DNA of 64,000 nucleotides, from assembly GCA_002841625.1 (NCBI GenBank), contig PHAG01000007.1, forward strand, positions 1 through 64,000, given 5' to 3'. Positions within the stretch are counted from its first letter, which is position 1; every line of letters starts with the position of its first letter. Source of the DNA: Firmicutes bacterium HGW-Firmicutes-1 (lineage in GTDB: Bacteria > Bacillota > Clostridia > Lachnospirales > Vallitaleaceae). This document shows, one piece after another, positions 355-9,879 of the stretch. Below the pieces are notes generated by a model, which saw only the letters and a list, made by a program, of their open reading frames with translations, was not told the origin of the DNA and made no database searches. The translations under genes were made by a program, and so were the position numbers.

Positions 355-400
355 TTGACAGAATGTACGGAATGTACTATTATTATTATAAAAGTACATT
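355..400 (+). promoter_or_regulatory. Sigma-A promoter with palindromic operator before the EF-Ts paralogue
   Basis: TTGACA (355-360), a 17-bp spacer and TATTAT (378-383) form a near-consensus promoter. The spacer holds a tandem GAATGTAC (361-368 and 370-377). An inverted repeat AATGTACT (371-378) / AGTACATT (393-400) covers the -10 and start region. The second gene of the operon encodes a TetR-family repressor, so autoregulation from this palindrome is a reasonable inference. Confidence 0.65.
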
Positions 401-414
401 TTGGAGGGTTTGGT

Positions 415-951
415 ATGAGTAATACGGAATTTATCAAGCAGTTACGTGAGCAGACAGGTGCAAAAATACTTGACTGTAAAAATGCGTTGATCATAGGAAA
501 TGGTGATTATAGCAAAGCACTAGTATTGTTAAAAGAAAAAGGGATTGAAAGTGCAAAAAGAAGAACATATAGATTGACTAAAAGCGGAATTATAGGTCAT
601 TATGTCCATAATAATCAACGGTTAGGAGTTTTAGTGGAGATTTATTGTGAAACTGAGCCCGCTACTTCCACACAGATTTTCAAAGATTTTGTTCGTGATA
701 TAGCAATGCATATAGCGGCCATGAAACCTAAATATATTACTACGGCTGATGTGCCATCTATTGATCTTGAGCAAATGAATTATGATGAGCATCAAGCATT
801 TTATAGAATAAACTGCTTGATGGAACAAGATTATTACAAGGACACAAACAAGAGCATTCAAGACGTGTTTCTAGAGATTATAGAAAAACTTAAGGAAAAT
901 GTGACTGTGAAGAGGTTTATCTATTTTGAGGTGAGCGATGATCATGAATAA
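415..951 (+). CDS. tsf: Divergent short elongation factor Ts paralogue
   Basis: EF-Ts normally catalyses GDP release from EF-Tu. The N-terminal UBA-like module is recognisable (LREQTGAKILDCKNAL, residues 10-25). So are a dimer-domain segment with AMHIAAMKPKY and a C-terminal segment with LMEQDYYKD and RFIYFEV. At 178 residues it is near the shortest bacterial EF-Ts type. The conserved TDFV motif that inserts into EF-Tu reads T80-E81-P82-A83 here, so exchange activity may be altered. The start at 415 is chosen because GGAGG lies just before it and EF-Ts similarity begins there. It overlaps the TetR gene by 14 bp. The usual rpsB-tsf context is absent, so this is probably a second copy; its role is unknown. 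Confidence 0.8.
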   Translation: MSNTEFIKQLREQTGAKILDCKNALIIGNGDYSKALVLLKEKGIESAKRRTYRLTKSGIIGHYVHNNQRLGVLVEIYCETEPATSTQIFKDFVRDIAMHIAAMKPKYITTADVPSIDLEQMNYDEHQAFYRINCLMEQDYYKDTNKSIQDVFLEIIEKLKENVTVKRFIYFEVSDDHE

Positions 952-1537
952 AAAAGCTGAAAAAATCTTAAACACCACATCGAAATTATTCCTTCAAAAC
1001 GGTGCCAAAAAAATAACCATGGATGATATTGCTGAACAAGCTAAAGTTTCAAAAGTAACCGTTTACAAATATTTTTCCGATAAAGACACGTTGTACTATG
1101 AAGTCGGTAAGCACATTTTATCTTTTCAGCTTTCAAAACTAAATGAGATTATTGAATCAAGAGATAGTCTCATAAATAGATTTTATAGTTATATTGACAT
1201 CTTGAGTGAGTTTACAGATAGCCGTCAATTATGGCTATGTAGCGAATTAACCAAGTTTAATGATCGCCTATCTAGTGAATACAATGGCTATATAAGCAAG
1301 CAAAATGAATCTCTATTAATTCTAATTGATGAGGGATACCGAAGCCGCTTGATCAAGCAAGACATTGATAGGCAGATTGTGTTCCATATGATAAATATGG
1401 GGATTGTTTACTATCAACAAAATGAGGAGTATAGAAGAATAATGCATACGGATTCGCATTTTCAGAAGACAATTTTGTTTCTCTTGCTAAATGGCATTTT
1501 TGTTGACACCAAAAGTATTATGAATGGTGAAATATAG
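938..1537 (+). CDS. TetR-family transcriptional regulator
   Basis: A 199-residue protein with an N-terminal TetR helix-turn-helix (ITMDDIAEQAKVSKVTVYKYF, roughly residues 27-48) and a helical ligand-binding C-terminal region that I cannot assign to a ligand class. A GAGG ribosome site at 928-931 fits the ATG at 938; an ATG at 944 is possible. Translation is probably coupled to the EF-Ts paralogue because the two genes overlap. The palindrome at 371-400 is a likely operator. The pairing of an EF-Ts-like protein with a TetR sensor suggests control by a small molecule, which is inference only. Confidence 0.85.
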   Translation: MIMNKKAEKILNTTSKLFLQNGAKKITMDDIAEQAKVSKVTVYKYFSDKDTLYYEVGKHILSFQLSKLNEIIESRDSLINRFYSYIDILSEFTDSRQLWLCSELTKFNDRLSSEYNGYISKQNESLLILIDEGYRSRLIKQDIDRQIVFHMINMGIVYYQQNEEYRRIMHTDSHFQKTILFLLLNGIFVDTKSIMNGEI

Positions 1538-1559
1538 TGATAAAGGGAGTAGAAATATT

Positions 1560-1886
1560 ATGGCAGAAGGTAGTGAATATGAAATACGTAGACCGACTGA
1601 TTATTATAGTAGATTAGCAAAAGAAGGATCTAAAGACTCAGTAAGAGAGATTATGAAAGACATTAACGAGCAAATGACAATCGCTGAGTCAAAATTAATA
1701 GATTTTGTTTTGGGTTATGTTGACACACTTGAAGGAATAAAGACTCTTGAAAATTACCTGTTTAATGGAACACAAATACAAAGAAATTATTGCGCATTAT
1801 ATTTCAATCGGCGTGAGGATTATAAAATCGTCAGAGAGGCTTATGATCAGGGTTTGATTGATATGAAGCAAGTGTTTTCAAGATGA
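1560..1886 (+). CDS. Conserved hypothetical protein, 108 residues
   Basis: I do not recognise this family. The protein is soluble and mostly helical and charged, with no signal peptide or membrane segment. The start at 1560 is preferred over an upstream in-frame ATG at 1524, because AGGGAG precedes 1560 and the upstream choice would run back into the TetR gene. It follows the TetR stop by 22 bp and is probably the third gene of the same operon. Confidence 0.55.
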   Translation: MAEGSEYEIRRPTDYYSRLAKEGSKDSVREIMKDINEQMTIAESKLIDFVLGYVDTLEGIKTLENYLFNGTQIQRNYCALYFNRREDYKIVREAYDQGLIDMKQVFSR

Positions 1887-2169: not shown

Positions 2170-3375
2170 ATGATTCAGCGAAATGAGTATTTTGAAAAAT
2201 TAAAAGGGTATAGAGATAAAAAGTTAATTAAAGTAGTTACAGGAATCAGACGTTGTGGTAAATCCACCTTACTCAAAATATTTCAGGAACATCTATTGGA
2301 AAATGGTGTTCAAGAAAATCAAATTATATCTATTAACTTTGAAGATTATGAATTTGATTATCTAAAAGATCCAAAGGTATTGTACAATTATATAAAAGAA
2401 AAAATAACCCTTGATAAAATGACATACATTTTTCTTGATGAAATCCAAAATGTGAAAGAATATGAGAAAGTAGTAGATAGTTTCTTCATTAAGGACCATA
2501 TAGATATTTATATGACCGGATCAAACGCTTATATGCTGTCTGGTGATTTAGCCACGCTTCTTTCGGGGAGATATATTAAAATAGAAATGCTACCATTCTC
2601 ATTTTCAGAGTATGTTAGGGCAAATGGAACAGGTAAAAGTGTAGAGGGAAATTATAGGGAGTATATTGAAACGAGCTCATTTCCGTACACATTAAGTCTG
2701 GAAAAAGAAACACGTCAGATCAAAGAATATCTTACAAGTATTTATGATACCATCGTTTTGAAAGATGTGATTGGAAGAAAAAAAATATCAGATGTCATGA
2801 TGTTGGAAAGTGTTATACGATTTTTGATGGACAATATAGGAAATCAATTATCGACTAAAAAAATAAGTGACACAATGACTTCGAATGGCAGAAGTATCAA
2901 TGTTAGAACTGTTGAATCTTATGTTTCTTCGTTTATGGAAGCATACATTGTTTATCAGGTAAAAAGATATGACATAAAAGGTAAGCAGTATCTAAAGACA
3001 TTGGAGAAATACTATATTGTTGATATTGGACTGCGTAATGCAATACTTGGGAATGCCGGTACAGATGTTGGGCGTGTTTTGGAAAATGTAGTATACCTTG
3101 AATTAATTAGAAGAGGATACGAGGTGTATGTTGGAAAAGTTGATAATGTAGAAGTAGATTTTGTTGTAAAAGATGAGAATGGAATAAAATATATTCAAGT
3201 TGCTGCTAGTGTGCGTGATGAAAACACCTTAGCCAGGGAACTTAGGCCTCTACAAAAAATCCAAGACAATTATTCGAAATGTATTATGACATTGGATTTA
3301 GATCCGGAAGTGGATTATGAAGGCATAAGAAAGATATATGCTTTAGACTATTTGATGCATAAGATTGAACTATAA
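2170..3375 (+). CDS. AAA-type ATPase with DUF4143 C-terminal domain
   Basis: A 401-residue protein of the AAA_14 / DUF4143 family. Walker A is GIRRCGKST (residues 25-33), Walker B is YIFLDEIQN, and the sensor region begins TGSNAYML. The C-terminal half has the DUF4143 pattern YIVDIGLRNAILGN, LENVVYLELIRRG and EVDFV, which resembles a restriction-endonuclease fold. The cellular role of this family is poorly defined; members are common in accessory regions of anaerobes. The gene stands alone behind an almost perfect promoter, with GGGGAG 8 bases before the ATG. Confidence 0.85.
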   Translation: MIQRNEYFEKLKGYRDKKLIKVVTGIRRCGKSTLLKIFQEHLLENGVQENQIISINFEDYEFDYLKDPKVLYNYIKEKITLDKMTYIFLDEIQNVKEYEKVVDSFFIKDHIDIYMTGSNAYMLSGDLATLLSGRYIKIEMLPFSFSEYVRANGTGKSVEGNYREYIETSSFPYTLSLEKETRQIKEYLTSIYDTIVLKDVIGRKKISDVMMLESVIRFLMDNIGNQLSTKKISDTMTSNGRSINVRTVESYVSSFMEAYIVYQVKRYDIKGKQYLKTLEKYYIVDIGLRNAILGNAGTDVGRVLENVVYLELIRRGYEVYVGKVDNVEVDFVVKDENGIKYIQVAASVRDENTLARELRPLQKIQDNYSKCIMTLDLDPEVDYEGIRKIYALDYLMHKIEL

Positions 3376-3406: not shown

Positions 3407-3601
3407 AGTGGACATGTTTCCAAGAGCTGAAGCTCTCAAAATCTACCGCCAACATTCATCCTGTTTCCTCCACGCATGTGGAGACGGTTTGTCTGCTTAA
3501 ACGGTTGTAATAACTAGGGTTAAGTGGTTACACCGTGCTAGAATTTAAAGCGTGTGGAAACATAAATAGAGAAAGGCAGGCACTCAAAAATATTGTCCAC
3601 T
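3407..3601. repeat. Small repeat with short terminal inverted repeats (MITE-like), copy C
   Basis: The ends are AGTGGACA (3407-3414) and TGTCCACT (3594-3601), an 8-bp perfect terminal inverted repeat around about 195 bp without an open frame. Inside is the perfect hairpin CTCCAC-GCAT-GTGGAG (3468-3483) followed by ACGGT, which links it to copies A and B. The block GTGTGGAAACATAAATAGAG near its right end links it to the 20.1, 21.0 and 22.8 kb pieces. It may be a transposon-derived non-autonomous element; no target duplication is obvious. Confidence 0.5.
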
Positions 3602-4696: not shown

Positions 4697-5403
4697 ATGA
4701 TGATATTCGGAATAATAATTGCAGTGATTGCGGTTATTATGATAATTGGTGGAATTTTACATGCTACTTATTTTAAAGGAAAGTTAGAAAAAATAAAGCC
4801 TTATGGCCAGCTTGTTGACGTTGATGACGGACAAATGCATGTCTATTCAATGGGAAATGGCGAGAAAACAATTGTATTACTTCCTGGTATGGGTGTTGGG
4901 CTTCCGTCTGCTGATTTTGCTCCCCTCATGCGTAAACTCAGTGAAAAATATACGGCTGTTAGTATTGAGTATTTTGGTGTAGGCTTTAGCAGTGAAACAT
5001 CAAAGTTGCGTCACTACTCGCGCCTTTGGCAGTAAATAAAAAACAATTATTCTCATATGGATATACTGAGAAAGAGATCAATGACCTCATTACTTTTGCG
5101 GGCTTTTCAATTAACGATAACTTGTTGGAGCAGATGTCAAATTCAGCAGAATTCATAAAACAAACGATTGAATTGCCATTCCCTGAACCGATTCCTTATT
5201 TCAAGGTGATATCAAAAAAAACCTATGAAACTCCGAATAGCCAAATAAAAATGACGTCCCAGGAATACCAGAGCAAACATCTTGAACGAATCGGAAAACA
5301 CGTAAAATATGAAATACTTGAAGGTACTCACTTCATTTATTTAAATAATGTCGACCGGATTGCAGAGATTACAGATGATTTCTTATTCGAAACAAATCAA
5401 TAA
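4697..5403 (+). pseudogene. Alpha/beta hydrolase pseudogene (internal deletion and frameshift)
   Basis: The first part (4697-5035) encodes a membrane anchor, then YSMGNGEKTIVLLPGMG and EYFGVGFSSETS, the start of an alpha/beta hydrolase fold. The frame then shifts near 5000-5010 and stops at 5035. The second part, in another frame to 5403, encodes the C-terminal part ending with GTHFIYLNN, which carries the likely catalytic histidine. The central section with the GxSxG nucleophile elbow is missing, so a deletion of roughly 100 codons with a frameshift is inferred. The product cannot be a working hydrolase. Confidence 0.75.
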
Positions 5404-6977: not shown

Positions 6978-7185
6978 TCCTCAAGGCATGTGGAGATGGT
7001 CGTGTTGCTGTCAAAGGTACAGAATTAGGTAGGGCGTAAAAGCCTGTAAATCAAGGGTTTCAGAGTATTAAGTCTATTTAGCCAGTTGGTGGTTGATGGA
7101 GAAAATGCTTTGAGACCCTTGTTTTTTGTGCTCTTGGAAACATATCGAGTTTATATAATGTAGTAGGATTGAGAAAAATTAGCCA
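6978..7185. repeat. Dispersed non-coding repeat, copy B
   Basis: About 190 bp matching copy A at 1-200, including GGCATGTGGAGATGG, TGTCAAAGGTACAGAA, AGGGCGTAAAAGCC and TTAGCCAGTTGGTGGTTGA. The hairpin arm is imperfect here. It abuts the 5' end of the DUF4386 gene. The spacer from 7186 to 7348 holds nothing I can identify. Confidence 0.7.
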
Positions 7186-7422: not shown

Positions 7423-9879
7423 ATGAGAAATAGTCATGAAGAGTATGAAGAATGCGACGATAATGATTTTGATATGAGATGCAGCAGAAAAAAATGTAGA
7501 AAGTGCTACGATTGCGAGCAAGACCACGACTGTGAGAAAGACCACGAATGTGAAAAAAACAAGTGCTCAATCTGTCCGATCGGAGCGCCAGGACCAAGAG
7601 GGCCGATGGGACCGATGGGACCAAGAGGGGCAACAGGAGCAACCGGTCTAGCAGGTGTAGCGGGAGCAACAGGCCCAGCAGGAGCAACAGGTTCAGCAGG
7701 AGTGATGGGACCAGCAGGAGCGATGGGACCAGCAGGGGCAACAGGTTCAGCAGGAGCAATAGGTCCAGCAGGAGTAACAGGAGCGGCAGGCGTAACAGGA
7801 CCAGTAGGTGCAACTGGAGTAATGGGACCAGCAGGCGCAACAGGACTAGCAGGCGTAACAGGACCAGCAGGTGCGACTGGTGTAATTGGTTCAGCAGGTC
7901 TAGTAGGCGCAACAGGCCCAGCAGGAGCAACTGGCCCAGCAGGTGCAACGGGCGTAACGGGTTCGATTGGTCCAGCAGGGGTAGCAGGAGTAACAGGACC
8001 AGCGGGTGTAACAGGTGTAACAGGAGCAGCAGGCGCAATTGGTCCAGCAGGTGCAACAGGCGCAACTGGAACAGCAGGTGTAACAGGTCCAGCAGGAGCA
8101 ACCGGCCCAGCAGGTGTAGCAGGCGTCGTAGGTGCAACAGGGGTAGCAGGAGCAACCGGCCCAGCAGGTGCAACAGGAGCAACCGGTCTAGCAGGTGTAG
8201 CAGGCGCAACAGGGGTAGCAGGAGCAACCGGCCCAGCAGGTGCAACAGGAGCAACTGGTCTAGCAGGTGTAGCAGGAGCAACCGGCCCAGCAGGAGCGAC
8301 AGGTCCAGCAGGAGCAACGGGCGTAACGGGTCCAGTAGGTCCAGCAGGTGTAGCAGGTGTAGCAGGAGCAACAGGACCAGCGGGTATAACAGGAGCAACC
8401 GGCCTGGCAGGAGCAACTGGTCCAGCAGGTGCAACAGGCGTAACAGGACCAGCAGGTGTAACAGGTCCAGCAGGAGCAACCGGCCCAGCAGGTGTAGCAG
8501 GCGCAGTAGGTGTAGCAGGAGCAGCAGGAGCAACCGGCCCAGCAGGGGCAACAGGTGTAACAGGTCCAGCGGGTCTAGCAGGCGCAACAGGAGCAGCAGG
8601 AGCAACCGGCCCAGCAGGGGTAACAGGTGCAACCGGTACCGCGGGTCTAGCAGGCGCAACAGGAGCAGCAGGAGCAATCGGACCAGCAGGTGCAACAGGT
8701 GCAACAGGTGTAGCAGGTGTAGCAGGAGCAACCGGCCCAGCAGGGGCAACAGGACCAGCAGGAGCAACGGGCGTAACGGGGCCAGTAGGACCAGCAGGTG
8801 TAGCAGGAGAAATAGGTCCAGCGGGTGTAACAGGAGCAACCGGCCTGGCAGGAGCAACCGGTACAGCAGGTGCAACAGGCGTAACTGGCCCAGCAGGTGT
8901 AACAGGTCCAGCAGGAGCAACAGGACCAGCAGGTGTAGCAGGTGTAGCAGGTGTAACAGGAGCAGTAGGAGCAACTGGCCCAGCAGGTGCAACAGGTGTA
9001 ACAGGTCCAGCGGGTCCAGCAGGAGCAACAGGTGTAGCAGGAGCAATCGGCCCAGCAGGTGCAACGGGTGTAACGGGTTCAGCGGGTCTAGCAGGCGCAA
9101 CAGGAGCAGCAGGAGCAACCGGCCCAGCAGGGGCAACAGGTGTAACAGGTCCAGTGGGTCCAGCAGGTCCAGCAGGAGCAATAGGAGCAGCAGGAGCAAT
9201 AGGCGCAACAGGAGCAACAGGTGTAGCAGGTGTAGCAGGAGCAACGGGCCCAGTAGGTGTAACAGGTCCAGCAGGAGCAACGGGTCCAGCAGGTGTAGCA
9301 GGCGCAGCAGGAGCAACAGGTGCAGCAGGAGCAACCGGCCCAGCAGGGGCAACAGGTGTAACAGGTCCAGCGGGTCCAGCAGGTCCAGCAGGAGCAATAG
9401 GAGCAGCAGGAGCAACCGGCGTAACAGGTCCAGCAGGAGCAACAGGAGCAACAGGTGTTTTAAGCTTTGCTGATTTTTATGCTTTGATGTCCCCAGATAA
9501 TACAGCGACTGTTGCCGTAGGTGCAGCTGTAGAGTTTCCAAGAAATGGTCCAACAAGCGGTCCAGTAATTGTTCGTACGAGTAACAGTTCATTTAATTTG
9601 ACTCAAATTGGTACATACCAAGTTTTTTTCCAAGTAAGTGTAAATGAACCAGGACAACTAATCCTAGCACTCAATGGGATTGACCTCCAAGAAACAGTTG
9701 TTGGAAGAGCCACAGGCACTTCGCAAATTGTGGAAATGGCACTTGTTACGACGACATCTGTTAATTCTATCCTTACCGTACGAAATCCATCAGGAAATCC
9801 AGAAGCACTGACCATAACACCTTCGGCTGGAGGAGCAAGGTCAGTTTCGGCACATCTTGTGATTACAAAAATCAGTTAG
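7423..9879 (+). CDS. BclA-like collagen-like spore surface glycoprotein
   Basis: An 818-residue protein with three parts. Residues 1-53 are charged and Cys-rich (11 Cys) and may anchor or cross-link it. Residues 54-678 are an uninterrupted Gly-X-Y collagen region of about 208 triplets, dominated by GPA, GAT and GVT. Residues 679-818 are a beta-rich C-terminal domain of the BclA/TNF-like kind ([37 protein letters not shown]). Thr in the Y position is the usual O-glycosylation site in BclA proteins. The ribosome site GGGGGG lies 16-21 bases upstream of the ATG. The neighbouring glycosyltransferase and the sigma-K-like promoter support an exosporium filament role. No signal peptide is present, as expected for a mother-cell coat protein. 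Confidence 0.85.
7582..9456 (+). repeat. Collagen-triplet coding repeat array
   Basis: About 1.9 kb of degenerate 9-bp units (GCAGGAGCA, ACAGGTCCA and similar) coding Gly-X-Y. Longer duplicated blocks are visible, for example the near-identical stretches around 8150-8200 and 8210-8260. Such arrays commonly change length by recombination. Confidence 0.9.

Follow-up and report, generated by a model that had tools for sequence, protein, structure and literature searches.

Firmicutes bacterium HGW-Firmicutes-1 has a second EF-Ts gene, here called tsf2, which is complete and encodes a short-form EF-Ts. On balance, tsf2 seems to be a conditionally expressed accessory EF-Ts that was gained by lateral transfer, is repressed by TetR and acts on the EF-Tu of its host. 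Normally, EF-Ts is the product of a single constitutive gene beside rpsB. No bacterial chromosomal EF-Ts paralogue with a regulator of its own was found in the open literature, which was covered mostly by titles and abstracts. A second EF-Ts with such a regulator would offer a simple means of tuning elongation conditionally. The DNA analysed, referred to below as the window, comprises positions 1-64,000 of the forward strand of contig PHAG01000007.1 (C7; assembly GCA_002841625.1); it begins at the first base of the contig, and the genome measures 3.95 Mb.

Three genes follow each other in the same direction on the forward strand: tsf2 (415-951, 178 aa), a TetR/AcrR-family regulator gene, tetR (938-1537, with its start at ATG 938 or 944), and a gene for an orphan 108-aa protein (1560-1886). 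The tsf2 frame is intact from ATG 415, which has GGAGG upstream, to the stop at 951, which lies inside the start of tetR, the two genes thus overlapping. The TTG at 355 that the ORF list gives as the start of tsf2 was rejected, since it belongs to the -35 box of a putative sigma-A-type promoter, TTGACA-17 bp-TATTAT (355-383), recognized by its match to 11 of 12 consensus positions. Downstream of the operon there is a weak terminator-like hairpin (2014-2050), one such hairpin being found against 1.4 expected by chance. A search of Rfam gave no match.

The tsf2 product scores above the curated cut-off of TIGR00116 (109.3 bits against 104.05) and above that of PF00889 (73.9 bits against 27). Its AlphaFold model, built from an alignment of 30 rows, has a mean pLDDT of 90; the best PDB match of the model is the Thermus EF-Ts 1aip_C (TM 0.85, 35% identity), and both the UBA-like N domain and the core fold are present in the model. 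Two features that are common in EF-Ts, although not defining, are absent, namely the TDF[VA] motif and the linkage to rpsB. The first-pass annotation had described a protein of EF-Ts fold with TEPA instead of TDFV, encoded together with a TetR gene and a small protein and without an adjoining rpsB. The profiles, the model, the alignment and the ORFs at 938/944-1537 and 1560-1886 bear out this description.

The canonical rpsB-tsf-pyrH set, whose rpsB-tsf pair the first-pass annotation suggested looking for elsewhere in the genome, is present on contig C2 and encodes an EF-Ts of 309 aa. Therefore, tsf2 is not the sole tsf and is a true second EF-Ts. For EF-Tu, a single match in this genome exceeds the family cut-off, and its GHADY and TREHILL segments are preserved; a dedicated second EF-Tu was rejected on that ground. 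No comparable gene was found in the other genomes among 59 relatives, 22 family members and 392 genomes drawn from the order, three overlapping sets of which the last is a sample. In a sample of the class, 188 of 391 genomes have a match to tsf2 at E 1e-21 or better. The best 29 other loci of this sample, which were read and in part aligned, encode short EF-Ts proteins of about 215 aa with TDF[VA], and rpsB is in view at most of those for which the coding strand was listed.

In two phylogenetic trees, the tsf2 product falls, at no firm position, among these short clostridial EF-Ts proteins, with identities of about 38-43%. Its terminal branch is 1.81 and 1.95 changes per column, respectively, against medians of 0.13 and 0.17 (11-14 times longer). 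Forcing tsf2 together with the long tsf genes of its own family is rejected (p-AU 0.017), as is forcing it together with the resident tsf alone (p-AU 0.035); both tests use 95 columns, involve a long branch and compare groups that were defined once the tree was known. That tsf2 arose recently by duplication of the resident tsf (309 aa) was rejected by the tree and these tests. Long-branch effects weaken the placement of tsf2, and we infer, as the simplest reading of its origin, a lateral gain from a Clostridia lineage using short EF-Ts. The third-position GC of tsf2 resembles that of the neighbouring genes; such a gain therefore need not be recent.

The residues E79-T80-E81-P82-A83 of the tsf2 product correspond to ETDFV in E. 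coli, the contacting pair D80-F81 being replaced by E-P. Among 128 other EF-Ts proteins aligned in this region, 127 have TDF[VA] and one has TDPV. The TDFV motif has been described as strictly conserved (PMC3747624). Phe81 is the residue with the largest EF-Tu contact area, and its intrusion near His84 has been tied to the loss of Mg2+ coordination (PMC5770160). The change could therefore be read as the mark of an inhibitory modulator, which would bind EF-Tu without opening the nucleotide pocket and compete with the resident EF-Ts, slowing translation or shielding EF-Tu upon release by TetR. The conditional operon layout and the retention of binding residues beside a changed intruding pair are in line with such a protein. 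The same changes, D to E and F to P, are however standard in a group of canonical, single-copy EF-Ts proteins of actinobacteria, so that exchange need not vanish with them, and we regard the inhibitory modulator as unlikely. Its more specific form, an "anti-EF-Ts" that has kept EF-Tu binding, has lost catalysis, and would throttle or protect EF-Tu when released by a TetR sensing a small molecule, appears less likely still.

This actinobacterial group came to light through the TDPV protein, which belongs to an actinobacterium whose rpsB-tsf-pyrH set is normal. The class of this actinobacterium was searched with the TDPV protein as query, and the best 30 loci (L152-L181), the TDPV locus included, were aligned: 25 have TEPV, two SEPV, and one each TDPV, TDFV and TEFV. 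Motifs of rpsB are present at each of the 30 loci, and every genome concerned has one EF-Ts match. Because the loci are the top-ranking ones for a TDPV protein, they indicate a sizeable group and not a frequency in the class. As sole copies, the EF-Ts proteins with [TS]EPV should be active, and the E-P change appears to be a natural variant compatible with a working EF-Ts. Since 27 of these 30 EF-Ts proteins, canonical and linked to rpsB, have [TS]EPV, the motif alone is no evidence for lost exchange or for an inhibitor, and the argument from TEPA to lost activity was rejected. The first-pass annotation had proposed a conditional modulator of EF-Tu, while allowing that the change might be a widespread variant in which exchange is normal. 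What stands of this proposal is a second EF-Ts, the expression of which is probably conditional, and the modulator or inhibitor role finds no support in the motif; the variant does recur in those 27 best-matching loci of one class, where an active EF-Ts is to be expected. Given that TDFV has been called strictly conserved, the [TS]EPV group also bears on how EF-Ts opens EF-Tu.

Outside the motif, 20 of the 25 columns that are invariant in 29 other EF-Ts proteins are kept in the tsf2 product, including the EF-Tu-contacting R11, whereas neutral drift over the length of the tsf2 branch would, under a crude model, have left about 5 of the 25. The changed ones are K49, D81, F82, G124 and G160. R11 and the likewise retained K22 and H99 correspond to R13, K24 and H149 of the Mycobacterium tuberculosis EF-Ts, where K24 is in contact with EF-Tu and alanine in place of R13 or H149 disrupts the formation of the complex (PMC9529903). 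In the motif loop, A83, S85 and T86 have precedents in other short EF-Ts proteins of the alignment, T84 alone having none. A gap of 21 residues follows residue 118, and a comparable one is seen in even shorter EF-Ts proteins from candidate phyla. Given the retention of 20 of the 25 invariant residues, EF-Tu-contacting ones included, the tsf2 product is probably under selection and probably binds EF-Tu. Some exchange activity is more likely than none or than a pure inhibitor, although exchange is possibly altered, and the very long end branch (1.8-1.95) means that the function may have shifted.

This retention also bears on the idea that tsf2 is a drifting relic, left by an accessory EF-Ts that was mobile or carried by a phage. 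Nearly all EF-Ts genes of 29 viral contigs lack a nearby rpsB, their products mostly being about 200 aa long, a truncated EF-Ts is described in Caulobacter phage Colossus (PMC3556154), and the contig starts inside a dispersed repeat, all of which would suit a relic. Drift is, however, hard to reconcile with an intact frame, Shine-Dalgarno sequence and promoter, or with 20 retained residues against the roughly 5 of the neutral model; moreover, phage genes are absent among the nearby ORFs that were read, and the viral EF-Ts proteins are separate from the tsf2 product in the tree. We hold a relic to be improbable. A prophage setting was rejected, there being no phage genes recognized by eye near the operon and no close viral or phage copy of tsf2.

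The promoter itself carries the heptamer AATGTAC twice in direct orientation, at 362 and 371, and once inverted, at 394, so that a putative operator (362-400) covers the spacer, the -10 box and the start region. The arms of the inverted repeat, AATGTACT (371-378) and AGTACATT (393-400), are separated by 14 nt. Markov sampling of the local sequence produces a perfect inverted repeat at least this long in 2% of cases; the palindrome therefore hints at an operator, which is plausible at this place, but does not prove one. Among all loci examined, the exact double box occurs once, at this promoter; no further operator copy was found in the window at 3 mismatches, nor an exact one in the other loci examined. 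The tetR product, about 200 aa long, contains a TetR_N helix-turn-helix domain (PF00440, 1.2e-12), also matches TetR chains of the PDB, and may well be what controls this putative operator. Its library matches are scattered across many different TetR families and single out no ligand class.

Small toxic molecules are frequent ligands of TetR-family regulators, which suits a further idea, that TetR senses an antibiotic directed at EF-Tu and the tsf2 product relieves its effect. A precedent is FusB, which binds EF-G and confers resistance to fusidic acid (PMC3352095). Yet no resistance family is matched, the operon contains neither an efflux nor a modification gene, the library matches give no indication of the TetR ligand class, and a literature search on EF-Ts supply and kirromycin yielded nothing relevant by title and abstract. 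Nothing found points directly to the link with an antibiotic or a stress that the first-pass annotation had suggested. Such a resistance or protection factor seems quite unlikely.

An accessory EF-Ts under TetR control might work as follows. First, tsf2 would have been acquired laterally from a Clostridia lineage using short EF-Ts. Second, TetR would bind the AATGTAC boxes and keep the operon, tetR included, repressed for as long as its ligand is absent. The tsf2 product would then reach the single host EF-Tu through its N-terminal helices (R11, K22), a helical E-P-A loop and H99, where it may supplement or modify GDP/GTP exchange or guard EF-Tu. The failure to find an orthologue, the five changed invariant residues and the very long branch count against this reading.

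The 108-aa protein is probably all-helical, according to a low-confidence model from its single sequence. It has no relatives in the phages, plasmids, viral contigs, related genomes and class sample searched, and two matches at E ~1e-3, inside long proteins, were judged to be due to chance. Beyond the operon, a perfect TTGACA-17-TATAAT promoter (2105-2133) precedes a gene for an AAA_14/DUF4143 ATPase (2170-3375), which scores 527 bits to the PADLOC candidate defence family PDC-S01. A dispersed repeat, within which the contig starts, lies at 1-188 and 6986-7173 (82% identical over 188 bp); its first 15 bases recur at 3474, and a palindrome, CTCCACGCATGTGGAG, lies at 3468-3483, contigs C5 and C6 holding two sites that are related to it. 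An apparent alpha/beta hydrolase (4697-5403) spans two overlapping frames (4697-5035 and 5026-5403) and is, judged by eye, probably a broken gene. At 7423-9879, an 818-aa collagen-like protein with long repeats resembles spore-surface glycoproteins, and the opposite strand of its gene holds a long open frame.

Among known systems, phage-borne EF-Ts genes (IMG/VR loci; Colossus gp247) resemble tsf2 in being accessory and not linked to rpsB. The viral-contig genes (L190-L218) stand alone, mostly with no rpsB in view; they differ from tsf2 in their phage setting, in nearly all having TDFV (a tally in which the motif finder matched another place in four rows), and in not grouping with the tsf2 product. 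The actinobacterial TEPV proteins show the same replacement of D80-F81, but are of the long form, rpsB-linked and single-copy. Thermus thermophilus EF-Ts (1aip) shares the fold and represents the short dimeric type to which the tsf2 product would belong, the two differing in the motif, the helical gap and the genomic setting. Finally, compared with the short canonical clostridial EF-Ts (about 215 aa, rpsB-tsf-pyrH), tsf2 lies away from rpsB as a second copy with its own tetR, and its product has TEPA for TDF[VA], 21 residues fewer after 118 and no C-terminal tail; with these proteins, however, it shares the domain order and 38-43% identity, and they are its nearest relatives in the tree.
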